Assembly: GCA_001829125.1 (NCBI GenBank)
Contig: MIAN01000234.1
Coordinates: 1-32,198, forward strand
Origin: Spirochaetes bacterium GWB1_27_13
Lineage (GTDB): Bacteria > Spirochaetota > GWE2-31-10 > MWDO01
DNA: 32,198 nucleotides
Reading direction: 5' to 3'
The first letter of the stretch is position 1. Every line of letters starts with the position of its first letter. Positions 6,096-32,198 of the stretch are shown here, piece by piece. Position numbers and translations under genes: made by a program. The notes beneath the pieces were generated by a model. That model did no database searches. It saw nothing but the letters and a program-made list of their open reading frames with translations, and had not been told where the DNA came from.

Positions 6096-6470
6096 TTATA
6101 GTTTAGTTATAAAATTGTATATTTCTATCAAAACTGTAAATAATTCTGGTTCTTTACTTTCTGTTATTTTATCTTCTGTATGTTTGTGGTCTGGAAATGT
6201 TTTTATTTTTTTATGATGTTTTGCATTATCGTATCTAAAAATTAAATTATTATTTTTATCCATAAAATGATAGCTATATTTAATTTTTTCTTTTTTAGTA
6301 ATATCTTTTACCTCTGTAATTTCAAGATAAAAATCTTTTTTAAAAGAAACTTTTATGTTAATATAACCATTTAGTTGAGAATATATTTTCTTTTCTACCG
6401 AATAATCAATTATTATTTCTTGAAAATATAATAATATATTTTCTATCTCTATAAAATATTTTTCAATCAT
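6096..6470 (-). CDS. TumE-like toxin (DUF6516-like) of a toxin-antitoxin pair
   Basis: 124 aa; YSYHFMDKNNNLIFRYDNAKHHKKIKTFPDHKH...EPELFTVLIEIYNFI resembles the TumE/DUF6516 family from memory; start overlaps the upstream antitoxin-like gene by 4 nt. Confidence 0.6.
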   Translation of the reverse strand: MIEKYFIEIENILLYFQEIIIDYSVEKKIYSQLNGYINIKVSFKKDFYLEITEVKDITKKEKIKYSYHFMDKNNNLIFRYDNAKHHKKIKTFPDHKHTEDKITESKEPELFTVLIEIYNFITKL

Positions 6471-6772
6471 TCTAATTCTTTTACTTTTTCTATATTAGAA
6501 ATATACATTTCGTATATTCCAGCCCAAATTATAAAATCTTTTCTATCATCGAGTTCGCCATTGTTAGTTTTGTTATAAAATTCTTCTGAGCTCATATTGT
6601 ATTTTTTTTCAAAACTAATTAGGTCATTCTTGATATTTACAATACCTTTTTTCATTTCATTAATCTGATAATTTATGAGTTCTTCAAATAATAAGTCTTT
6701 ATTTTTTGTATTATTAAAAATTATATTAATTTTTCGCTCTATTGCAGGGTCTAACTCTAAATTTAAAAGCAT
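6467..6772 (-). CDS. TumA-like antitoxin partner
   Basis: 101 aa; FEKKYNMSSEEFYNKTNNGELDDRKDFIIWAGIYEMY resembles antitoxins paired with TumE-type toxins; AGGAGGG ribosome-binding site just upstream; overlaps the toxin gene. Confidence 0.55.
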   Translation of the reverse strand: MLLNLELDPAIERKINIIFNNTKNKDLLFEELINYQINEMKKGIVNIKNDLISFEKKYNMSSEEFYNKTNNGELDDRKDFIIWAGIYEMYISNIEKVKELE

Positions 6773-6857
6773 TCAATCCCTCCTGATTTAATTATACGAT
6801 ATTTTTTTGAAATATGGTACAAAATAATTAGATGAGAGAGTAAATCTTATCAAATAT

Positions 6858-9800
6858 CTAATCCTTATATTCCCCAAGCATTGCCAAAAATTTCTTTCTG
6901 TCTTCTGGGGAAATATTTATATTGGCAATAATTTTACTTTCTTTTAAGTTTTTGATAGATTTATTGAATAATTTCGAGAATTCTAAATTTTCTTCAATTT
7001 TTTTCTTAGTTTCTTCTGAAATATTCCCTTTTGCTACATCTTTTGCCATTTCTACCTTAATATTATCATGAGGAAATATATCATTTTCAACATTTTTTAT
7101 ATTTTTTATATTTTTTATTATTATTTCAAAAATTTTATCATCTCTAATCCAACTTTCATCAAAATAATAAAGTGCAAAGAGTGTAACTAAAACCTCGTCG
7201 CTTAATATATCTGGTCTTTGTGGTGGCTTTTTATTTTTAGGATTAAAAACCTCAGAAAATTTTTTCCCAAATTTCTTTTCTTCCTCTTTATAAGAACGCA
7301 TCGAAAAATATCTAACCTTATTTAAAAACCTCTTTATTGCCCTTGGTGTATTGTGTTTAAAATTAATAAGTGGAGCCCAAATCTTTAGTGCCTCTTTAAA
7401 ATTATCAGAATCATCAATAATATCGCCTTCTCCCAATTTTTTGCTTATATATACTAAAATTGGAATAATAAAAACTAAAATAATAAAAATAACTAAAATA
7501 CCCAATAAAATCCAAAAATTACTATTTTTCGTTTGTCCATTTTCAAAACTAGAACTATTTGGACTCTGAATCGTAGTAGTTGTTATTTGGTTTATTGTTG
7601 TTACTGGTGTAGGTTTAGCATTATTAATTATACTTATAATTTTATCCCTATCAATAAAACTTTTTATTTCTTTTAAGGCGTAATTATTATTAGTTTTTTC
7701 ATAATAATTTTTTATAAAATCAAGTTCTTTTTTGTCTTTTATATTACCAATAATTTGGTTAAAATAACTTAAATTAAACGATTTTATATCATCTAGGTTT
7801 ATTGTGTTATTTAATTGCTTATTTATATAATTAAAATGGTTTATTTCTTCAATTTTTAAAGATTCTTTTAATATATATTTTTTCTTATCGAAGTTATAAG
7901 TAAATATAGATTTCACTAAATTTTTATCATCTTCATAAATAAGCTTTGTAAATAAATCATTTTCAAATATATCTTTATTTATTTCTTTATTAAATCCTAA
8001 TTTTTGATTATTTTGTTCGTTTTGTTGCTCTTTTTGTATATATTCTTTGCTTTTTGATATTATATTATTAAAAAAGAAAAATCCAACTATAAAAATATAT
8101 ATAACTAAAACAACTTTTGCTGCTAAAAAAAACTTTTTAAGAGGATTTTCGATTTTTATTTTACTTTCTTTGTCTTCTTTTTTATCTGATGTTAAAAGCT
8201 TTGTAGAATTCTCTTTTTCGGCAATTGGTACTGGTATTTCTATATTTATCAGTTTTTCCATGTATTTTTTAGCAAAATCCTTTAATTTATTTGTATTATC
8301 ACTATTATTATTGCATTCATCATATTTTTCTACCAAATCCTTAAAATCAAGCCCTACGCAATGTTCAACTCTATCTTTATCAAGCCCAAGTATAAAAAAA
8401 CAATCTCCTGCACTCACCAAAAAATTGATAGCTTCAAGGACTGTAACAACAGTATTTGGCTTACACCTATCAAGATCATCAATTATTATCACAAGATTTC
8501 TATCACCCAAAGCCTTAGTAACTTCTTTAAACTCCTTTGCAAATTTATATCTAAACCCAGTATTTTCGGTAGAATATCTAATACCAAACTTACTTTTTAT
8601 CTCATTCTTTACAAACTCACTTAGACTACTAAAAGGCTTTAATTTATCAAAAATAGCCAATATTGCAGGCATTGAAGATATAAATATTATTATAACATTA
8701 ATTATTATATTATTATCTTTAAAATTAAATAAATTACTTATATTAGTAGATATAAATTCTAAATTTAAGATAATTATTCCAAGAGTTACAATATATATCA
8801 ACCCAATAATTAAATATAAAAACCAATTTCTTTTTAACCTTAAGCACAATAATCTAATATGAAACCAAAAATACCAAAGATTGCCCCAAGGAGGAATAGC
8901 CTGAAATTTTATGTTTTCTAATAATGCGTTTAATAACTGCTCCTCGTTTTGATGATGCCAAGCATTAAACCAAACTGGATAAAAATTATGTTTTTTGAGG
9001 AAAGCATTTATTAGACTCATCATCGAAGACTTGCCAGTCCCCCATTTGCCAGTAATAGCAAGAGTTAGCGGTGGCTTTGTGTTTCTGTTACGGATAAATT
9101 TTGCAATACCCTCTGCAGTCGGTGCAAAATTTAAGTAATCAATCATCCCATTTTCGAGAGGTTTATCTGAAATTAAAACATTTTCTATTGATTTTAGTTT
9201 TTCTTCCTCTTTTTTGACTTCTTTTTTAAATAATTCAGTAAAAAACCATATAATTAACCCTAATAATACAATATAATACCATCCAGCTGGATATTTTGCA
9301 TAATTATTAAGCTTTTGCCAAGTATCCCCACCATCTTTAGTCTGATAAATACTACCACTTTGTGAAACTACAAGCCCATTGTTTGCATCTATAAAGTTTA
9401 GTTTAATTAAACTAGTTTTAATAACCTCACCATTTATTTTTATCTCTTTAGGCTGCCATGTATCGCCTGAATCAGTGGATTTAAAAATAGTTTTTTTTCC
9501 ACAAATCCAACCTGTTTTATTGTCTGATAAAAAATTAATTGAAGATAATCTTTCATTAGTACCAGAGTTTATTTTATTCCAAATATCTCCGCCATCGATT
9601 GATTTTAGAATAGTGCCATTATCACCACACGACCAGCCTGTTTTATTGTCTGATAGAAAATAGATTGAAGATAAACTAGTAACAATTCTTGTATTTATTT
9701 TTTTCCAATTATAACCACTATCAATTGATTTTAAGATAATGCCATTTAAACCACAAACCCAACCGATTTGATTATTAATTGAAAAATAGATTGAAGATAA

Positions 9801-11315
9801 GATATATTCATTACTATTTGAATTTGTTTTAGTCCAACTATCACCTTCATCTGTTGATTTTAATATACTCCCAATACCACAACTCCAACCGATTTCGCTA
9901 TTTGAAAAATAGATTGAATATAGTTGTGGTTGTTTGACAAATTTTACTTCATTCCAATTAATCCCTCCATCTTTAGATTTTAAAATAATACCTCTCTTTC
10001 CTGAACTCCAACCAATTTTATTATCGCTAGAAAAATATATTGAATTTATATCACTTGTAACTTCATAATTTATTTTAATAAAAGAAGTTCCACTATTGCT
10101 ACTTTTAAATAATTTGGTATCTTTTAATATCCATATATTTTTATTGTCTTTTGAAACAAAAGTATCTTTTATAATTTTTTTTCTTATTTGATACCAGTAA
10201 TCTCCGCCATCGATAGATTTTAAGATAGTTCCATTATAACCACAAGCCCAACCTGTTTTATTATCACTTGAAAAATATATTGAAGTTAACCATTCATCAG
10301 TACCTGAACCTTTTTTACTCCAAGTTTCTCCGCCATCGATAGATTTTAAGATAGTTCCATTATAACCACAAGCCCAACCTATTTTATTATCATTTGAAAG
10401 ATAAATAGAAGCCAAATCAGCAGTAGTTTTATAGTTTGTTTCAGTCCAATTATTTCCCCCATCAATTGATTTTAAAATAGTGCCAGTAATACAAAAAGCC
10501 CAACCTATTTTATTATTATTTGTAAAATAGATTGAGTATACAGGTTGTATATTTTTTTTAAAAAAGCTTTTTAAATAGTATGTTTCAATATAGTTTGTTT
10601 CAGTCCAATTATTTCCCCCATCAATTGATTTTACAATAGTTGCAGTGGTACGATTGTAAGCCCAAGCAGTTTTATTATCTGATGAAAAATAGATTGAATT
10701 TAACCTTTCATTAGTACCATAGTTCATTTTAGCCCAATTATTTCCACCTCCATCAGTTGATTTTAAAATAGTCCCATTACTGCCACAAATCCATCCTGTT
10801 TTATTGTCAGCCGAAAAATATATTGAAGTTAAACTTTCATTAGTACCAGAGTTTATTTGTTTCCAATTATCTCCCCCATCAGTTGATTTTAGAATAGCTC
10901 CATTATCACCACAAGCCCAACCAGTTTTATTATCAATAGAAAAATAGAGTGAAATTAAACTTTCATTAGTACCAGAGTTTATTTGTTTCCAATTATCTCC
11001 CCCATCGATAGATTTTACAATAGTTCCACTCCAACCACAAGCCCATATATTTTTGCCATCTTTACTAACAAAGATTTTACTTAAATTCGCTCCTATGTAA
11101 GGCAATTTTTCGTCTGGGTTTATTTCTATTGGATAAAAAATATCGAGTAAACTTGCATTTCTATAAGCATCTGAGTTTGTTGGTTGAAAGATAGCAACAA
11201 TAGTTGCCAGAGTGATTATTAGGGTTATTATGATTAAAATTGTTAGTTTTTGGGATGATTTTATATTAAAAGTTGATTTTTGGGTTTCTAAGATAGTACC
11301 TTCGTATTTTTGCAT
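6858..11315 (-). CDS. Membrane KAP-family P-loop NTPase with N-terminal Ycf48/BNR-type beta-propeller repeats
   Basis: 1485 aa. N-terminal TM (LTILIIITLIITLATIVAIF); 14 repeats of the type SIYFSSDNKTGWACGYNGTILKSIDGGDNW; TM (WYYIVLLGLIIWFFTELF); Walker A GKWGTGKSS followed by FYPVWFNAWHHQNEEQLLNALL; Walker B LVIIIDDLDRCKP; TM hairpin between Walker A and B; a second TM pair after Walker B; GGAG ribosome-binding site upstream. Confidence 0.85.
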   Translation of the reverse strand: MQKYEGTILETQKSTFNIKSSQKLTILIIITLIITLATIVAIFQPTNSDAYRNASLLDIFYPIEINPDEKLPYIGANLSKIFVSKDGKNIWACGWSGTIVKSIDGGDNWKQINSGTNESLISLYFSIDNKTGWACGDNGAILKSTDGGDNWKQINSGTNESLTSIYFSADNKTGWICGSNGTILKSTDGGGNNWAKMNYGTNERLNSIYFSSDNKTAWAYNRTTATIVKSIDGGNNWTETNYIETYYLKSFFKKNIQPVYSIYFTNNNKIGWAFCITGTILKSIDGGNNWTETNYKTTADLASIYLSNDNKIGWACGYNGTILKSIDGGETWSKKGSGTDEWLTSIYFSSDNKTGWACGYNGTILKSIDGGDYWYQIRKKIIKDTFVSKDNKNIWILKDTKLFKSSNSGTSFIKINYEVTSDINSIYFSSDNKIGWSSGKRGIILKSKDGGINWNEVKFVKQPQLYSIYFSNSEIGWSCGIGSILKSTDEGDSWTKTNSNSNEYILSSIYFSINNQIGWVCGLNGIILKSIDSGYNWKKINTRIVTSLSSIYFLSDNKTGWSCGDNGTILKSIDGGDIWNKINSGTNERLSSINFLSDNKTGWICGKKTIFKSTDSGDTWQPKEIKINGEVIKTSLIKLNFIDANNGLVVSQSGSIYQTKDGGDTWQKLNNYAKYPAGWYYIVLLGLIIWFFTELFKKEVKKEEEKLKSIENVLISDKPLENGMIDYLNFAPTAEGIAKFIRNRNTKPPLTLAITGKWGTGKSSMMSLINAFLKKHNFYPVWFNAWHHQNEEQLLNALLENIKFQAIPPWGNLWYFWFHIRLLCLRLKRNWFLYLIIGLIYIVTLGIIILNLEFISTNISNLFNFKDNNIIINVIIIFISSMPAILAIFDKLKPFSSLSEFVKNEIKSKFGIRYSTENTGFRYKFAKEFKEVTKALGDRNLVIIIDDLDRCKPNTVVTVLEAINFLVSAGDCFFILGLDKDRVEHCVGLDFKDLVEKYDECNNNSDNTNKLKDFAKKYMEKLINIEIPVPIAEKENSTKLLTSDKKEDKESKIKIENPLKKFFLAAKVVLVIYIFIVGFFFFNNIISKSKEYIQKEQQNEQNNQKLGFNKEINKDIFENDLFTKLIYEDDKNLVKSIFTYNFDKKKYILKESLKIEEINHFNYINKQLNNTINLDDIKSFNLSYFNQIIGNIKDKKELDFIKNYYEKTNNNYALKEIKSFIDRDKIISIINNAKPTPVTTINQITTTTIQSPNSSSFENGQTKNSNFWILLGILVIFIILVFIIPILVYISKKLGEGDIIDDSDNFKEALKIWAPLINFKHNTPRAIKRFLNKVRYFSMRSYKEEEKKFGKKFSEVFNPKNKKPPQRPDILSDEVLVTLFALYYFDESWIRDDKIFEIIIKNIKNIKNVENDIFPHDNIKVEMAKDVAKGNISEETKKKIEENLEFSKLFNKSIKNLKESKIIANINISPEDRKKFLAMLGEYKD
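9293..11085 (-). repeat. 14 tandem propeller-blade repeats (about 120-126 bp period) within the KAP NTPase gene
   Basis: Repeated translated core (S.DNK.GW.CG..GTILKS.DGG..W); near-identical DNA copies exactly 126 bp apart, e.g. 10201 vs 10327 and 10851 vs 10977. Confidence 0.9.
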
Positions 11316-24693: not shown

Positions 24694-25422
24694 TTATATT
24701 AAATTTACATCACCAGCCAAAACGTCAATAATTTGTTCATCGATTTTTAATTTAAGAATGCCGTCTTCGTCAATATCAAAAACTTCACCGCTCTTGACTT
24801 CGCCATTCATAATCCATTCGACTTTTTTGCCGATTATTTTGCTATATTTCACCCATTCTTTTTTAATTTTTTTAATGCCATCATAACCGAAGAATATAGT
24901 AAAATATTTTGATAATTTATCTAAGTATAACTCGCTAAACTTTTTTAAATCAAAGTCTTTTCCTAGAATCATAGAAACTGAGGTGGCTTTTTTACCAACG
25001 CCAGACAGGTCTTCTTTTGTGGAATTAACATTTACGCCAATGCCTACAATAAGTTTTTCCATTTTTGTAGTTTTCCAAATGGATTCTGCCAAAACACCAG
25101 AGATTTTTTCATCGTTTATATAAATGTCATTGGGCCATTTAATCCAAGAATTATGAACGCCAATTTCATCAAATAATTCGACGAGTGCCACAGAAATACA
25201 GGCAATATACCAATTGAAATTTAAAATTGATTTTTTTGGTTTAAATAATATTGATAAAGCGAGATTTTTATTTTCAAAACAAAACCATTTACGATTTTCT
25301 CTACCTCTGCCAGTTGTTTGGTTAAACGAGTAAACAATAGTCTTATCTTCAAATTCGTTTTGCTTTAAAAACGAGTTTGTAGAATCTACTTCTTCTAAAT
25401 AAACAATATTAAATAAACTCAA
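24694..25422 (-). CDS. birA: Biotin--[acetyl-CoA-carboxylase] ligase
   Basis: 242 aa; VDSTNSFLK, TTGRGRENRKWF, IKWPNDIYINDEKISGVLAE, VGIGVNVN. Confidence 0.93.
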   Translation of the reverse strand: MSLFNIVYLEEVDSTNSFLKQNEFEDKTIVYSFNQTTGRGRENRKWFCFENKNLALSILFKPKKSILNFNWYIACISVALVELFDEIGVHNSWIKWPNDIYINDEKISGVLAESIWKTTKMEKLIVGIGVNVNSTKEDLSGVGKKATSVSMILGKDFDLKKFSELYLDKLSKYFTIFFGYDGIKKIKKEWVKYSKIIGKKVEWIMNGEVKSGEVFDIDEDGILKLKIDEQIIDVLAGDVNLI

Positions 25423-25836
25423 TGTGGTAACCTAAACTGTATTTTTATTGTTATATACAAAAATTTTTATTTTGTCAAAAAAATAAAGATTAATTTTTTA
25501 AATTTTTGATAAATTTTACATTTGTACGATAATTTGAAATTTTAGAATTTTTTTATTAAAAATCAAAATATTCTAAATATTTATTATAAAACTAGTTAAG
25601 TTGATATTTCTTAAAACAGATTTTTTCTAAAAAAATGATGAGGTTATACATTATTAATTAAATTTTGAATTTATTAATTTAAATAATTTGAAAGAAAGTG
25701 ACAACTAAAAAAGATAGATTTATTTAATTAAAATAATTAAATGATAATAAAAACTTTTTTTATTTCAAAATACAAAAAATATATTATAATATATCTAAAT
25801 CTAATGTTAAATTAGAAAATTTTAAGTATATTTCGA

Positions 25837-25856
25837 TGCCCGAGACTGGAATCGAA
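25837..25856 (-). other. tRNA 3'-end-like fragment (possible att footprint)
   Basis: Minus strand reads TTCGATTCCAGTCTCGGGCA, like a tRNA T-loop, 3' T-stem and acceptor strand; no tRNA body on the 5' side. Confidence 0.4.
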
Positions 25857-25900
25857 TTTAATTTGTAATTATTAAGAATAAATTAATTTGCAAAACTCCA

Positions 25901-25946
25901 ATAAAATCTGTGTAATCAGTTTTAATCTGTGGAAATATGTGTTATG
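25901..25946. repeat. Dispersed AATCTGTGTAATC...GTGTTATG repeat, copy overlapping the start of the DUF1175 gene
   Basis: ATAAAATCTGTGTAATCAGTTTTAATCTGTGGAAATATGTGTTATG; shares CAATAAAATCTGTGT with the element at 16707-16721. Confidence 0.6.
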
Positions 25947-26957
25947 AAAAAGATTGTGTTATTTATATTAATTTTTATTATTCTATCATTTTTTATAATT
26001 TTTGTTGTTATTTTGAATGATAATAAACTTGAAATTAAACAAACAAGCACTGTGATTTATGCAAACTCAAATAATTTTGCTTTTTTTGAAATAAAATATA
26101 AAAATAAACTAAGGCAAAAATTTTTTCCTTTTGATAAGAAGTTTAAAATTAATTATATAGAAGGAAAACAATTAATTGAAGAGATTAAAAGTAAAAAAGG
26201 ATTCTACCTAAAAAGTAAAACTGTATCTGGGGTTGTTAAGTTTAATATAGAGGCAGAAAATCAAATTAAATTTTGCGAAATTAAAATTGCAGAAAATTAT
26301 ACTGATAGTGATGGTGATGGATTTCCCGATGTGGTAGAGTTAACCAATGAAGATAGAGATAATTTTGCTAATTGGTTTGTTTCAATTGCTGAGTCTCAAT
26401 TTTATGGAATATCGTCTAACTGGGAGGCTATAAATCAAAGTTGTTCGGGGCTTGTTGTTTTTGCTTGCAAGGAGGCTTTGAAGAAACATAATAATCAATG
26501 GTTTGCAAAGTATTCTTTTATTGTAACAAAAAATATTGATGATGTAAAAAAATATAATTATCCAGATGTTCCTTTGTTAAAAGAGAATATTTTTAGGGTT
26601 AAAAAGGGTAGTTTTAATATAAATGATGTGAGTTCTTGTTTTGCAAATACTGCGAATGTTAATAATTTGCTCAATTTTAATTTCACATTTATTGGTAAAA
26701 ATAAGATAGATTTTAAAAAAGGTGATGTTTTATTTTATAATGTTTCAAATAATCAAGATTCTCCATATCATTCGATGATTTATACTGGAGAAAGCGATTA
26801 TTTGATCTATCACACTGGCAACCTTTCATCTACAAATATAGGTGAGGTAAGAAAAGTTAAATTTGACGATTTATCAAAACATCCCGACTCATTTTGGCAT
26901 CCAGTAAGTGATAATAAATCATTTTTGGGGGCTTATAGGTGGAATTTTTTGAATTGA
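25944..26957 (+). CDS. DUF1175 family protein (YfaT-like)
   Basis: N-terminal membrane/signal segment, then DSDGDGFPDVVELTNEDRDNFANWFVSIAESQFY...CSGLVVFACKEAL...KKGDVLFYN...YHSMIYTG. ATG at 25944 preferred over the GTG at 25929 used by the ORF track. Confidence 0.7.
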   Translation: MKKIVLFILIFIILSFFIIFVVILNDNKLEIKQTSTVIYANSNNFAFFEIKYKNKLRQKFFPFDKKFKINYIEGKQLIEEIKSKKGFYLKSKTVSGVVKFNIEAENQIKFCEIKIAENYTDSDGDGFPDVVELTNEDRDNFANWFVSIAESQFYGISSNWEAINQSCSGLVVFACKEALKKHNNQWFAKYSFIVTKNIDDVKKYNYPDVPLLKENIFRVKKGSFNINDVSSCFANTANVNNLLNFNFTFIGKNKIDFKKGDVLFYNVSNNQDSPYHSMIYTGESDYLIYHTGNLSSTNIGEVRKVKFDDLSKHPDSFWHPVSDNKSFLGAYRWNFLN

Positions 26958-26992
26958 GATGATTATTCTAAATTTTTATAATGGAGTAATAA

Positions 26993-27298
26993 ATGGATGA
27001 TAGAACAATATATTTTTCTCAAAAATTAAAAGAAAATCTATCAAAAAATATAAAAGAATTGGTTTTATTTGGCTCAAGAGCAAGAGGCGACTATTGGGAT
27101 GGTTCTGATTACGATTTTTTGATTGTGGTTAATGAAAAAAGTAAAGAAACAATAAAATCTATAAGACAAATCGAAGTTGATTTTTTAGATAAATTTGATA
27201 TTTTATCAGCTAGTTTAATATTTGACGAAGAAGAATGGGAAAAAACAAAAAAATTACCAATAGGAATAAATATTTTGAGAGAAGGGGAGTGGATTTGA
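26993..27298 (+). CDS. MNT-type minimal nucleotidyltransferase
   Basis: 101 aa; LVLFGSRARGDYWDGSDYDFLIVV (GSRARG...SDYD active-site motif); GGAG ribosome-binding site. Confidence 0.88.
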   Translation: MDDRTIYFSQKLKENLSKNIKELVLFGSRARGDYWDGSDYDFLIVVNEKSKETIKSIRQIEVDFLDKFDILSASLIFDEEEWEKTKKLPIGINILREGEWI

Positions 27299-27699
27299 TG
27301 GAATTAAACGCTGAAATTATAGCAATGATAAATAAATCAGACAGTAAATTGAAGACTGCAAAAATAGTTTATAACAATGAACAATATGCTGACTGCATGT
27401 CTTCTTCATATTATGCTGTTTTTCATATAATTTCTGCTTGTTTATTATCAAAAAATCTAACATTCTCAAGTCATTCTCAGACTATTGGAGCCTTTAATAA
27501 AGAGTTTATTAAAACTGGCATATTTCCAAAGGAATATACTGCAATAATTCAAGGACTTTTTGAAGATAGACAGAATGGGGATTATAATGTATATTTTACC
27601 CCTGATAGAGATATGGCTTTTGATAGTATAAAACAAACTGAAATTATTATAAATTCAATAAAAGATTATTTACTAAGAGAAAAGGATAAAGGAAACTGA
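27298..27699 (+). CDS. HEPN domain protein
   Basis: About 133 aa from ATG 27298 (TGATG overlap with the MNT stop); YADCMSSSYYAVFHIISACLLSKNL and EDRQNGDYNVYF match HEPN proteins; paired with MNT. Confidence 0.82.
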   Translation: MELNAEIIAMINKSDSKLKTAKIVYNNEQYADCMSSSYYAVFHIISACLLSKNLTFSSHSQTIGAFNKEFIKTGIFPKEYTAIIQGLFEDRQNGDYNVYFTPDRDMAFDSIKQTEIIINSIKDYLLREKDKGN

Positions 27700-27703
27700 T
27701 TGT

Positions 27704-30700
27704 ATGAGTGAAAATTTTAATTCATTAGAAAATATTCTTAAAAAAAAATTTCATGGTGCTGTAAATATTAGAGGGATTAAATTTCAGTTATTGTTTTCAA
27801 TTTTTAAGTCTTTTGAATTATTAAAAGAAAATCCTAATTTTAAAATCCAACTTGAAGGAATAGAAGACCTTGATGTTAAAAAACAAATAGAAAATGTTAA
27901 TTTAAAAGGATTAAAGTTTAAAAATATTTATATTCAAGCAAAAACATCTGATAATCTATGGAATTGGACAAAATATCAAGAAGTATTTAAAAATTTTTAT
28001 GAAATATATAAAATTGATAATCAATCAAATTTTGAAATGATAACAAATTTTGAGCATAATAAAGATTGGTTAAAAATTATAAATAAAGAAAAATTGGATA
28101 AAAAAGAAGAAATTAAACTAAATAAGAGATTTAAAGCGATTTGTGATAAAATAGGGTTGAGAGACTCTGAAAAAGATGATTTTTTTACTAAAATCAAACT
28201 AAAATCTTATGAAGAGAGTAAATTAATTGACTCAATAGTAAAAAATATTATTGATTTGTATTCTTTAGCAAATGATATTGTTTATTATTATCTTGATATT
28301 TTGTTTGGAAAATTTTTAGAAAAATCTAAAAATAGAGATTTTATTGATAAATTATTTTTAGATAATTTGTGGGTAGAATTTAATCAATTAAAGGTAAGAA
28401 ATGAGCAATTTGATGCTTACAAAAATGGATTGATTTCTAAATTGGTGTGGAATGATGATAATAATAAAGATGATTTTTATGATGGTAAAAAAGTAAGACC
28501 ATCGCAAATAGTTTCAAATCTTGATGTTTTTCGTCAAAAATGGATAGAACAAATTAATAAAGCGATTTATGAAAATGGTATATGTGTTATAAAATCATCA
28601 AGTGGACAAGGAAAATCTACATTATTATATAGATATGTTTACAATTATTGGTCAGAAAAATATATTTACACAATAAACTCTGTTAAAACAGCCGAAGAAG
28701 TAGAATTAATAAATGATTTTTTGAGAATGTTAAAAAAACTTGATTATCCAATAATAGTTGTAATTGATAATGTTGATAATAACACAAGATATTGGTATAA
28801 AATTGCGAGTTTATGCAGAGAAATTGGAATTAAACTGCTAATATCAGTTAGATATGAGGATTGGTTTAGATTTAGTGATATAAATATTACAAATTATGAA
28901 ACTATTCAACCTTATCTTGATATTGAAGAAGCAAAAGAAATATACAATAATTTAAAAAAGATTAATCGTATTCATAAAGATATTGTTTCTCCTCAATGGG
29001 CTTTTGAAAAATTGGAAGATAGTAAATTATTGATTGAATACATTTATCTAATCACTCATGGAGAGATGTTAAAAGAAAAGTTGAATGAACAAATAAAAAA
29101 TATTTCTATACTTGAAGAAGATAAAGCAAAAATTGAAATATTACGAAAAGTTTCGGTTGCTGATATGCTTGGTTCTCCACTAAGTATCAAAAAATTACAA
29201 AAAAACATAAATTCTAAATCAGATTTACAATATTTATTAGAATCTTTAGAAAAAGAGTATATTGATATTAAAGAAGGTATTATTACTGGCATTCACTGGG
29301 TTAGATCAAAACATATTTCTCAAATTCTGCATGGTAAATATAAAAATTTAACAGATACAGCAATAGAGATATTGAATGATATTAATTTTGAAAATCTTGA
29401 TATATTTGTGTCAAACTGTATTTCAAATAAAGATATAAATAATCAAGAAATATTTAAACACATGCAATGTAATATACAAAATTATTCTTTAAAAGATTTG
29501 AAAAAAATATTTAGAGGTTTATTTATAGGTGGTGAAAAATTATTTTATCTTGAAAATAAGGCTAATTTTGATGAAGCGTTTGATTTTCTGGGAGACACTG
29601 GGATTTTTTTTCTTGGAACTAGCACATTACCAACAAAATCTCATAATGCTATTGAATCTTTAAAAAAAGATGGTCTTTTTAATGAAAGTCTTGAAAATCT
29701 TGAAAGAATTACCCAAAAAATAAAAAAACTAAATAGAGGCTTTGATTTATGTAATAATTTCTTTGATAACAACTTAAATAAAAATATATTACAAGAAAAA
29801 CTAAAAGAAGATATTCTTAATGATTTTCCAGAAATTTTTCATTGGTTAAAATATTCTAACATGTCAGTTGATATAAAAAATGTTTTGTTAAAATATAAAG
29901 TGAGTGATTTTGATAATATAGATATAGAAAATTTAAAATATTTTCTTTCTGGTATTTATGAATATGATAATAATGTTTATTTAGAATGGTTTGAAAAGAA
30001 TAGAATGGATTTGATGTATTTTCTTACATGGCAAACAAATTCTTTAAATTTAGATATAACAGAAGAAAAAGAGATAAAAATAAAATATATAAGCATTATT
30101 GATAATGAAACTGGCAAATATAATGATAAATCTGTGAAAAGGATAAAAATACTAAGAGAAATTTTACCTTTCTTGAAGATTTATTCGACAGAAAGACTTG
30201 ACTTTGAAATATTAGGTATTACTCCAACTTATGATAAAGGTTATAAAAATATTCCTATAGAAAATGAACCTTTGCAATTTATAATTGAAATAAATAAACT
30301 ATGGGCTGAAATAGTAGAAAATAATTATCGAACTGATAGTTATTATATATTTCAACAAAAATGGTTTGAATTAAGAAATTGCATTATAAAAGTTATGGAA
30401 AATTTTAACAAATGGCTTAAAAATATTTTTATGGGAAAGTCTAATAAAGTAGAATTACTTAAAGAGATTGATAACATAAATATTATAAAAAAAATGGATG
30501 AAATTTTAGGATTGCCTCTTCAAATAGATAAAAATATAGAAAAGCAATTTAAAGATTCAATAAGTGATTGCGATAGTTATTTTAGATTTTTTGTTAGTAA
30601 GATTGGTTCTTATTCTCCTAGTAATGACAATAATCTTTTGTTACATAATTTAAACGAGTATAGGAAAAATTTAGATAATTTATACAAAGGTTTTAAGTTA

Positions 30701-31615
30701 TTATTTGATAATAATATACCTGATTATTTTAAAATTTGTGATTTAAAAGAAAAAGAAAAAAAAGAGGCAGATAGATTAGTTGATATGGTTGGTATTTTTA
30801 TAAATCACTGGAAATCGAGACCTATATTATCATTTGAAGAAATAATAAAGCAAGAGAAAGAAATATTTAATAATAAAATAGTTCAAAGTGTAAAAAATGC
30901 TTTAAAAGATAAAAAAGTTTTTGTTAATAATAAATTATATATAAACCATCCTTTAAATTACTTATTTATTGCATTTGAGATTGAAAATCCACTTTTTTAT
31001 TTAAAAGAATTGCTAAATATATTGAAATTACTCAATAATATAGAAAATACAGCACATTGTTATTATTTAATGCCTATATATCAAGGTAATCGTATAATTA
31101 ACGGTATTTTTCAATTTTATGATACCACTATAAGGAAAATAAATAATAATGAATATTTTCCTTGGGAAAGTTTCTTGCCAGTAGAAATTGATGATAAAAT
31201 AAAGTTATATATCCAAGATTATCCATATAAAGAAGTATTTGAGTTATCTTTTATTGATGAATTTAAAGGTTTTTTTGGATATATTAATATGTTTTATGAA
31301 ATTTTGAGATTAACTACTTTAAATGATAAAGAAAGTTATTATTTAACAAAATTTAAACAAAAAATTATAGATTACTATAATTCTTTTGTAAATGAATTGA
31401 TAAATAAAGCAAATGATTTTTATAATAAATATAAATTAATAATTAATCAATTACAAAAATATCTAAAAGATGTTGATATTGATGTAGAAAAAATTATTTA
31501 TATTTTAAAAGAAATATCAGTAGCAAAAGATGATTCAATAATGGATATTATTTCTAAAAATTCAGAATATTTAATAAAATGTAATTTTGAAATAACAAAA
31601 TATACATTTATTTAA
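27704..31615 (+). CDS. Large STAND-like P-loop NTPase with putative N-terminal PD-(D/E)xK (Cap4/DUF4297-like) nuclease region
   Basis: 1303 aa; N-terminus GAVNIRGIKFQ...IQLEGIEDLDV...IYIQAKTSDNLWNW (candidate E..ED...QxK nuclease signature); Walker A SSSGQGKST (residues about 298-306), Walker B IIVVIDNVDN (about 350), sensor-like LLISVR (about 378-383); starts 4 bp after the HEPN stop. Confidence 0.75.
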   Translation: MSENFNSLENILKKKFHGAVNIRGIKFQLLFSIFKSFELLKENPNFKIQLEGIEDLDVKKQIENVNLKGLKFKNIYIQAKTSDNLWNWTKYQEVFKNFYEIYKIDNQSNFEMITNFEHNKDWLKIINKEKLDKKEEIKLNKRFKAICDKIGLRDSEKDDFFTKIKLKSYEESKLIDSIVKNIIDLYSLANDIVYYYLDILFGKFLEKSKNRDFIDKLFLDNLWVEFNQLKVRNEQFDAYKNGLISKLVWNDDNNKDDFYDGKKVRPSQIVSNLDVFRQKWIEQINKAIYENGICVIKSSSGQGKSTLLYRYVYNYWSEKYIYTINSVKTAEEVELINDFLRMLKKLDYPIIVVIDNVDNNTRYWYKIASLCREIGIKLLISVRYEDWFRFSDINITNYETIQPYLDIEEAKEIYNNLKKINRIHKDIVSPQWAFEKLEDSKLLIEYIYLITHGEMLKEKLNEQIKNISILEEDKAKIEILRKVSVADMLGSPLSIKKLQKNINSKSDLQYLLESLEKEYIDIKEGIITGIHWVRSKHISQILHGKYKNLTDTAIEILNDINFENLDIFVSNCISNKDINNQEIFKHMQCNIQNYSLKDLKKIFRGLFIGGEKLFYLENKANFDEAFDFLGDTGIFFLGTSTLPTKSHNAIESLKKDGLFNESLENLERITQKIKKLNRGFDLCNNFFDNNLNKNILQEKLKEDILNDFPEIFHWLKYSNMSVDIKNVLLKYKVSDFDNIDIENLKYFLSGIYEYDNNVYLEWFEKNRMDLMYFLTWQTNSLNLDITEEKEIKIKYISIIDNETGKYNDKSVKRIKILREILPFLKIYSTERLDFEILGITPTYDKGYKNIPIENEPLQFIIEINKLWAEIVENNYRTDSYYIFQQKWFELRNCIIKVMENFNKWLKNIFMGKSNKVELLKEIDNINIIKKMDEILGLPLQIDKNIEKQFKDSISDCDSYFRFFVSKIGSYSPSNDNNLLLHNLNEYRKNLDNLYKGFKLLFDNNIPDYFKICDLKEKEKKEADRLVDMVGIFINHWKSRPILSFEEIIKQEKEIFNNKIVQSVKNALKDKKVFVNNKLYINHPLNYLFIAFEIENPLFYLKELLNILKLLNNIENTAHCYYLMPIYQGNRIINGIFQFYDTTIRKINNNEYFPWESFLPVEIDDKIKLYIQDYPYKEVFELSFIDEFKGFFGYINMFYEILRLTTLNDKESYYLTKFKQKIIDYYNSFVNELINKANDFYNKYKLIINQLQKYLKDVDIDVEKIIYILKEISVAKDDSIMDIISKNSEYLIKCNFEITKYTFI

Positions 31616-31637
31616 ATTTTATTGTATAATTATATAA

Positions 31638-31703
31638 GGTGTTGGTATTCATTGGCAAGATATTGATGAGGATATATCAATAGATGAAATTTTAGGAATT
31701 TAA
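31638..31703 (+). pseudogene. C-terminal remnant of a DUF2442-like protein
   Basis: In-frame GVGIHWQDIDEDISIDEILGI* resembles the DUF2442 C-terminus; preceded immediately by an in-frame TAA, no start codon. Confidence 0.6.
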
Positions 31704-31751
31704 TACCAAAAATTTTAAAGATTAACTATAATTATGGTATAATTACATAAT

Positions 31752-31774
31752 TTAATCTGTGTAATCTGTGTTAT
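31752..31774. repeat. Dispersed AATCTGTGTAATCTGTGTTATG repeat, copy upstream of the alpha-2-macroglobulin-like gene
   Basis: TTAATCTGTGTAATCTGTGTTAT just before the GGGGGA ribosome-binding site. Confidence 0.6.
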
Positions 31775-31784
31775 GGGGGAAGAA

Positions 31785-32198
31785 ATGAATCGAGTAATTA
31801 GGCTTGCATTTTGTTTTTTGATTTTGGTTTCTGTGAATATTTTTGCTGCGAGGTTATTTTATCTTTCGACTGATAAGACTTTTTCGATAAATGAAGAAAA
31901 GCGGGTAAAAATTGAGTCAGAAGCTTATGTTTCTGGATTGAAAATAAGGGTTTATAAAATTGTTGACCCAATAAAATTCTATAAAGAACAGGATAATATC
32001 CATAAACCAGTGATAGAAGGTAGAAAATTGAGGTATTACACGCCAGAGGTTGTAAATGGATTTATTGGATTTTTGAAAACAGAGTTAAGAGAATGGGCAA
32101 GAGAAGAAATTCCTACAAATAGTAGAGGAAATCTTATAAATAGTTATAGTGATTTTTCTATGTCATCAGAAGAGACTAATATTTTCCCAAATAAGATT
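31785..32198 (+). CDS. Secreted alpha-2-macroglobulin-like protein, N-terminal part (runs off window)
   Basis: Open frame from ATG 31785 to the window end; signal peptide MNRVIRLAFCFLILVSVNIFA; RLFYLSTDKTFSINEEKRVKIESEAYVSGLKIRVYKI resembles an MG1-type domain; DUF1175 gene nearby supports it. Absent from the ORF track because it has no stop in the window. Confidence 0.55.
   Translation, partial: MNRVIRLAFCFLILVSVNIFAARLFYLSTDKTFSINEEKRVKIESEAYVSGLKIRVYKIVDPIKFYKEQDNIHKPVIEGRKLRYYTPEVVNGFIGFLKTELREWAREEIPTNSRGNLINSYSDFSMSSEETNIFPNKI

Follow-up and report, generated by a model that had tools for sequence, protein, structure and literature searches.

The gene at 27704-31615 of the window (the whole 32,198-nt stretch from Spirochaetes bacterium GWB1_27_13 analysed here) most probably encodes, with a probability of about 0.8, a single-protein Avs-like (bacterial NLR-like) defence protein, in which a Cap4/DUF4297 nuclease, an nSTAND5 switch and, at the C-terminus, a variable recognition region would work by ligand-triggered oligomerisation and DNA cleavage. 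The original prediction placed a nuclease fused to a STAND-like ATPase at 27704-28900, a span that is real but covers only residues 1-399 of a protein running on to 31615. The domain parts are each already known; what would be new is how stably Cap4 and nSTAND5 are combined, how widely the combination occurs, and a C-terminus that has no match. The gene and its three parts are the following:

27704-31615, plus strand: Cap4 nuclease, nSTAND5 ATPase and C-terminal sensor-like region (1303 aa, intact single open reading frame)
27704-28453, plus strand: Cap4/DUF4297-type PD-(D/E)xK nuclease domain, residues 1-250 (PF14130 in the family, PDB profile matches, AlphaFold2 fold)
28466-29338, plus strand: nSTAND5 NTPase, residues ~255-545, with a winged-helix-like end (HWVRSKHI)
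29339-31612, plus strand: helical, repeat-like stretch and then mixed alpha/beta segments, residues 546-1303, presumed to be the sensor

Pfam left residues 1-250 unnamed when the full window protein was searched, and PF14130 (Cap4_nuclease) matched the domain alone at E 0.0086, with 16.7 bits against a gathering cut-off of 26.2. Since the window's own match falls below that cut-off, identification of the nuclease rests on the family and on the fold. PF14130 was matched at E<=1 in 15 of 17 N-termini (best 4.2e-9), and one of them, L004, scored 27.4, above the cut-off. A search of the full protein against PDB with phmmer gave nothing useful, and the family profile matched AbpA (8zue, 6.3e-7), DUF4297 (8xav, 9.4e-7, covering almost the whole domain at profile positions 22-219) and LmuA (9ux7, 1.7e-6). 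The PADLOC model for LmuA (PDLC03848) matched four homologues over ~200 residues, the best being L012 at 7e-12. The AlphaFold2 model of the nuclease (12 sequences, mean pLDDT 77.1, pTM 0.73) presented a long first helix (residues 19-42) and two C-terminal helices (190-209 and 216-243). When residues 1-252 were compared with PDB by Foldseek, the top matches were Cap4 (6vm5, 1.2e-6), then Avs3 (8dgc, 9.5e-6, query TM 0.58) and LmuA, with DUF4297 also among the top; the fold is thus of the Cap4 PD-(D/E)xK type, and a non-nuclease fold was not seen.

The residues expected of such a nuclease are found in three segments, the first two of which, and the half-motif that follows them, are placed as follows:

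27755-27787, plus strand: G(x4)RG(x2)FQ motif opening the first long helix, residues 18-28
27842-27877, plus strand: catalytic strand pair KIQLEGIEDLDV, residues 47-58, with E51, E54 and D55
27926-27946, plus strand: IYIQAKT, residues 75-81, the QxK half-motif with Q78 and K80

All motifs quoted in the original prediction are present in the reading frame and are not due to chance, key residues being conserved in alignments of 18 and 19 rows. The first had been read as GxxxRGxxFQ, in which the motif is right and the spacing is wrong, the actual arrangement being G18-x4-R23-G24-x2-F27-Q28; Q28 is kept in all homologues with a complete N-terminus. The remaining motifs were read at 48-IQLEGIEDLDV-58, 75-IYIQAKT-81 and 86-WNWTK-90, and the numbering of the proposed catalytic residues E51, E54/D55 and K80 was correct, with Q78 completing the QxK motif. 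In the 18 rows (the window and 17 homologues), E51, D55, Q78 and K80 were invariant and position 54 was always E or D, and the same was observed in the 19-row alignment with two further homologues, even though identity of the nuclease domain to the window was mostly only 13-34%. WNWTK, which had been included in the nuclease pattern, is a feature of the clade and not a family motif, with counterparts only in the two closest relatives, L008 (WKWSQ) and L009 (WNWSK). An apparently invariant K68, obtained with MAFFT from seven full-length homologues, was spurious, as QAK had been misaligned against another lysine; a local-pair alignment with closer relatives pointed to Q78/K80. Altogether, the Cap4-type fold, the sequence profiles and the invariant E/D and K residues bear out the PD-(D/E)xK nuclease; by sequence and model, residues 1-250 are a Cap4/DUF4297-type domain of this kind, which would be expected to cleave DNA.

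The STAND-like ATPase that had been predicted downstream corresponds to PF25199 (nSTAND_NTPase5), matched at 1.9e-10 over residues 257-387 and scoring 41.2 bits where the cut-off is 34. The Walker A, Walker B and LLISVR sensor-like motifs attributed to it were all found:

28595-28618, plus strand: Walker A (SSSGQGKS region), around S300-G301-Q302-G303-K304-S305
28745-28771, plus strand: Walker B (IIVVIDNVD region), D355
28835-28864, plus strand: LLISVRYEDW, with the sensor-1-like arginine R383 and D386

In Walker A, G301, G303 and K304 were invariant in both the 18- and the 19-row alignments, as were R383 and D386 in the 19-row alignment, and D355 of Walker B is an aspartate within the close clade, several distant rows being shifted by one residue. 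The conserved block extends to the winged-helix-like H531/R534. The nSTAND3 profile (PF20720) reached 24.7 bits, below its cut-off of 27.2. Matches to UvrA were rejected because they were weak or covered the P-loop region. Matches to mad8 fell, in the one located case (L018, 0.0025, residues 256-294), where the ATPase region begins, and the literature offered nothing helpful on that system.

Beyond the switch, conservation drops sharply. Identity to L009, the nearest complete relative, decreases from 50% (residues 421-545) to 27-29% (546-1100, with 27% in 546-700) and to 20% (1101-1303), and identity of the C-terminal part to other homologues is ~10%. This much faster divergence is as expected for a recognition region, which we infer the C-terminal part to be. 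Its model, built from seven sequences, was mostly helical (pLDDT 69, pTM 0.48, last 128 residues unreliable), and a PDB fold search with this low-confidence model returned nothing below E 0.02; helical matches with high rmsd, such as those to zinc transporters, were treated as meaningless. This presumed sensor has no match in PDB, and what it binds might be an infection signal of a new kind.

Homologues were collected by tblastn, which returned distant relatives on plasmids and one phage record, and by a combined pattern and tblastn scan, which yielded eight loci from GTDB genomes plus three from viral contigs; L042 and L045 came afterwards, from a further scan and a search of the phylum. The long relatives L008 (Cyanobacteria) and L009 (Planctomycetota) share 34% and 32% identity with the window, respectively. 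Hosts are scattered patchily over at least seven phyla, comprising Cyanobacteriota, Planctomycetota, Bacillota, Bacteroidota, Pseudomonadota, Deinococcota and the window's own phylum, in which the full-length profile matched two of 298 sampled genomes, the window genome counted. This wide host range indicates horizontal spread. The window, L008 and L009 formed one group in the nuclease tree (support 99/99) and in the STAND tree (100/98), and two large clades were recovered in both; several deep branches are long and finer placement is unsure. The agreement between the nuclease and switch trees implies that the fusion was inherited as one unit. When the phylum was searched with PF25199 alone, most matches scored under the cut-off and lay in open frames of 381-614 aa, which are not members of the Cap4-nSTAND5 fusion. 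The window's genome holds a second PF25199 match (G000:C104:26769-27143, 37.3 bits with in-frame neighbours), dismissed as a second copy of the fusion because its 316-aa open frame is too short.

The setting of the homologues is that of mobile elements and defence islands. Four loci came from IMG/VR viral contigs and several others lie on plasmids, and the neighbouring genes include an HsdM-like type I methyltransferase (L016), a PtuB-like HNH protein (L013), a type II methyltransferase (L018), MmeI (L002) and, by reading, an HsdS-like protein (L045). Individual loci presented particular arrangements. In L017 (5191-8325, an IMG/VR contig), the homologue is flanked by repressor-like genes and by a TnsB/Mu-type transposase, which fits carriage by a Mu-like prophage. 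In the Sphingopyxis plasmid pMC4 (L004, 5341-7239), a homologue of about 632-633 aa, apparently truncated, ends just before IS21 (istA/istB), and L008 is split into two frames. In the Marinovum plasmid pMaD1 (L006, 5407-13248), the homologue and a second large gene share 14 bases; the second gene, by reading, opens like an HNH protein and continues with a weak NACHT match and HEAT repeats, so that two STAND-type nucleases stand in tandem. L015 (1254-7093) is a partial homologue at a contig end, whose neighbours include a weak JetC/MukB-like match (1.6e-4), possibly Wadjet-like.

The original prediction had also proposed an order of events, from sensing through oligomerisation to nuclease activation, and the same order is suggested by analogy with Avs3 and DUF4297-HerA. 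In SeAvs3, ligand binding leads to tetramerisation that pairs the nuclease domains (PMC11291478). DUF4297-HerA is a promiscuous dsDNA nuclease acting by abortive infection, its function depends on dimerisation of the nuclease domain through an interface formed by helix A and two C-terminal helices, and mutation of its PD-(D/E)xK site reduced activity and abolished defence (PMC11291478). The AlphaFold2 model of the window nuclease includes the helices corresponding to this interface. By analogy, the protein would rest as a monomer with an inactive nuclease until its C-terminal region is bound by a ligand of phage or plasmid origin; the STAND module would then bind ATP and oligomerise, and the nuclease domains would pair and cleave DNA non-specifically, aborting the infection.

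Many domains with the PD-(D/E)xK fold have changed roles, and DNase activity is here a prediction from sequence and model, so the Cap4-fold domain might act on RNA in vivo, or be a DNA-binding or structural part. The strict invariance of E51, D55, Q78 and K80 at such low identity makes this quite improbable, as does the degradation of dsDNA by DUF4297-HerA, the matched family whose activity has been tested (PMC11291478). The target might also be different, as similar fusions could in principle take part in plasmid competition or phage-free programmed death. Several homologues are carried by plasmids, and L011-L013 lie near mobilisation/partition-type genes (by reading), which would suit an element-borne anti-competitor or post-segregational killing device instead of a phage sensor. 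However, such a device is considered unlikely in view of the four loci on viral contigs and of a variable C-terminus that suits variable ligands; moreover, anti-plasmid and anti-phage roles can coexist, and Lamassu uses a Cap4-type effector. The existence of broken relatives, namely L004 beside IS21 and L008 in two frames, raises the question of whether the window copy is itself a decayed or inactive remnant, which is very hard to credit for an intact 1303-aa frame that keeps all catalytic and Walker residues. A triggered DNA-cleaving defence protein is thus the reading retained for the gene.

Immediately upstream, two small genes are found on the same strand:

26993-27298, plus strand: MNT-type (minimal nucleotidyltransferase) protein, antitoxin-like, with a GSRARG...SDYD motif (PF01909, 1.7e-11; PADLOC PDC-S09, 3e-16)
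27298-27699, plus strand: HEPN-domain protein, 133 aa (PF05168, 1.9e-17)

Their adjacency is that of type VII MNT/HEPN toxin-antitoxin pairs; among the NCBIfam equivalog models, MntA gave 27.9 bits against a cut-off of 60 and the HEPN protein had no match. The two genes and the nuclease-STAND gene occupy a 4.8-kb stretch (26958-31772) that has a DUF1175 gene before it and a large gene, at 31773, after it. As these flanking genes directly adjoin in three relatives of the same phylum (L034-L036), the three genes represent an insertion, acquired together or stepwise. Their compactness could mean that they form one three-gene system, in which HEPN would be an RNase-like second effector or the pair would guard or regulate the STAND protein: the start codon of HEPN (ATG) shares one base with the stop codon of MNT, the HEPN stop lies 4 nt before the nuclease-STAND ATG, all three genes fill the single insertion, and the HEPN gene is the sole PF05168 match in the genome. 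A promoter-like 11/12 match also lies just 5′ of the first gene, but DNA this rich in AT should give dozens of such matches (84 found versus 64 in shuffles); no terminator-like site was found in 25400-32198. In opposition to a single system, none of the sampled homologue loci has MNT or HEPN in its flanks, a 35-residue stretch in L008 (E 0.21) being noise, and chance stacking is plausible because MNT/HEPN is reported in PMC7641770 to be the most abundant predicted toxin-antitoxin system in prokaryotes. A three-gene system is accordingly regarded as doubtful. Since no sampled homologue has the pair, MNT/HEPN and nuclease-STAND are favoured as two stacked modules. It is more doubtful still that the cassette is a coupled system joining an RNA-targeting MNT/HEPN pair to a DNA-destroying Cap4-nSTAND5 protein whose sensor fold has no solved relatives, in which either the STAND protein would respond to a disturbed MNT/HEPN pair or both effectors would fire on one signal.

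A second defence-like cluster is found at 6096-11315 of the window, between glutamate-synthase-type genes. It comprises, on the minus strand, a gene at 6858-11315 for a 1485-aa protein with seven YCF48-type repeat stretches (PF14870, 6e-53) and a KAP NTPase (PF07693, 1.6e-22), which matched QatA (1.8e-31) and PifA (6.7e-20) in PADLOC, and an adjoining TumE-like toxin gene with its partner (6096-6772, minus strand).

Among known systems, Avs3 (AVAST type 3; SeAvs3, 8dgc) shares with the nuclease-STAND protein an N-terminal Cap4-type nuclease on a STAND ATPase followed by a long C-terminal region, but it has ~2000 residues against 1303, and the low-confidence model of the window's C-terminus had no fold match to Avs. 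The Avs layout of effector, STAND module and C-terminal sensor in one protein was found, the last being a presumed role. Nevertheless, Avs3 and Avs4 chains were absent from the PDB profile matches listed for the full protein and from the best 60 listed for the STAND module, and in searches with the window protein neither an Avs nor a whole-protein defence model was matched in PADLOC (2023) at E<=1, nor any defence model in NCBIfam. The protein would be Avs-like in working principle; its membership of the Avs families found no support in these searches, and it belongs to an uncatalogued lineage. With Cap4, the effector of SAVED-Cap4 CBASS (6vm5/6wam), it shares the nuclease fold, which gave the best Foldseek match, whereas its partner is an ATP-dependent STAND switch and not a SAVED cyclic-nucleotide receptor. 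CBASS combines a CD-NTase with a SAVED effector; Pfam reported no SAVED domain in the protein and no CD-NTase gene adjoins it, the neighbouring MNT matching oligonucleotide-cyclase models of PADLOC weakly (E 0.006 and above). The DUF4297-HerA system (8xav, 9c1m) shares the profile match across the nuclease domain, but it consists of two proteins with a hexameric HerA, in contrast to one chain with a different ATPase. LmuA of Lamassu (9ux7, 9nxx) is related by the ~200-residue profile match in homologues and by a fold match; Lamassu has a separate SMC-like LmuB, and none occurs here. Avs5 (SIR2-nSTAND3) is likewise built as a STAND defence protein whose C-terminal sensors vary (PMC12931631), but differs in its SIR2 NADase effector and in its nSTAND3 module, whose profile the window matches below cut-off.

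No description of a Cap4-nSTAND5 fusion was found in the open-access literature, an absence that is weak evidence, as most subscription papers lie outside this scope. What emerges is a coherent lineage of STAND proteins with a Cap4 nuclease that crosses phylum boundaries, is absent as a system from PADLOC 2023 and could not be tied to Avs in the sequence searches. This suggests that the diversity of nuclease-armed NLR-like sensors goes beyond the Avs set, or that they arose repeatedly.
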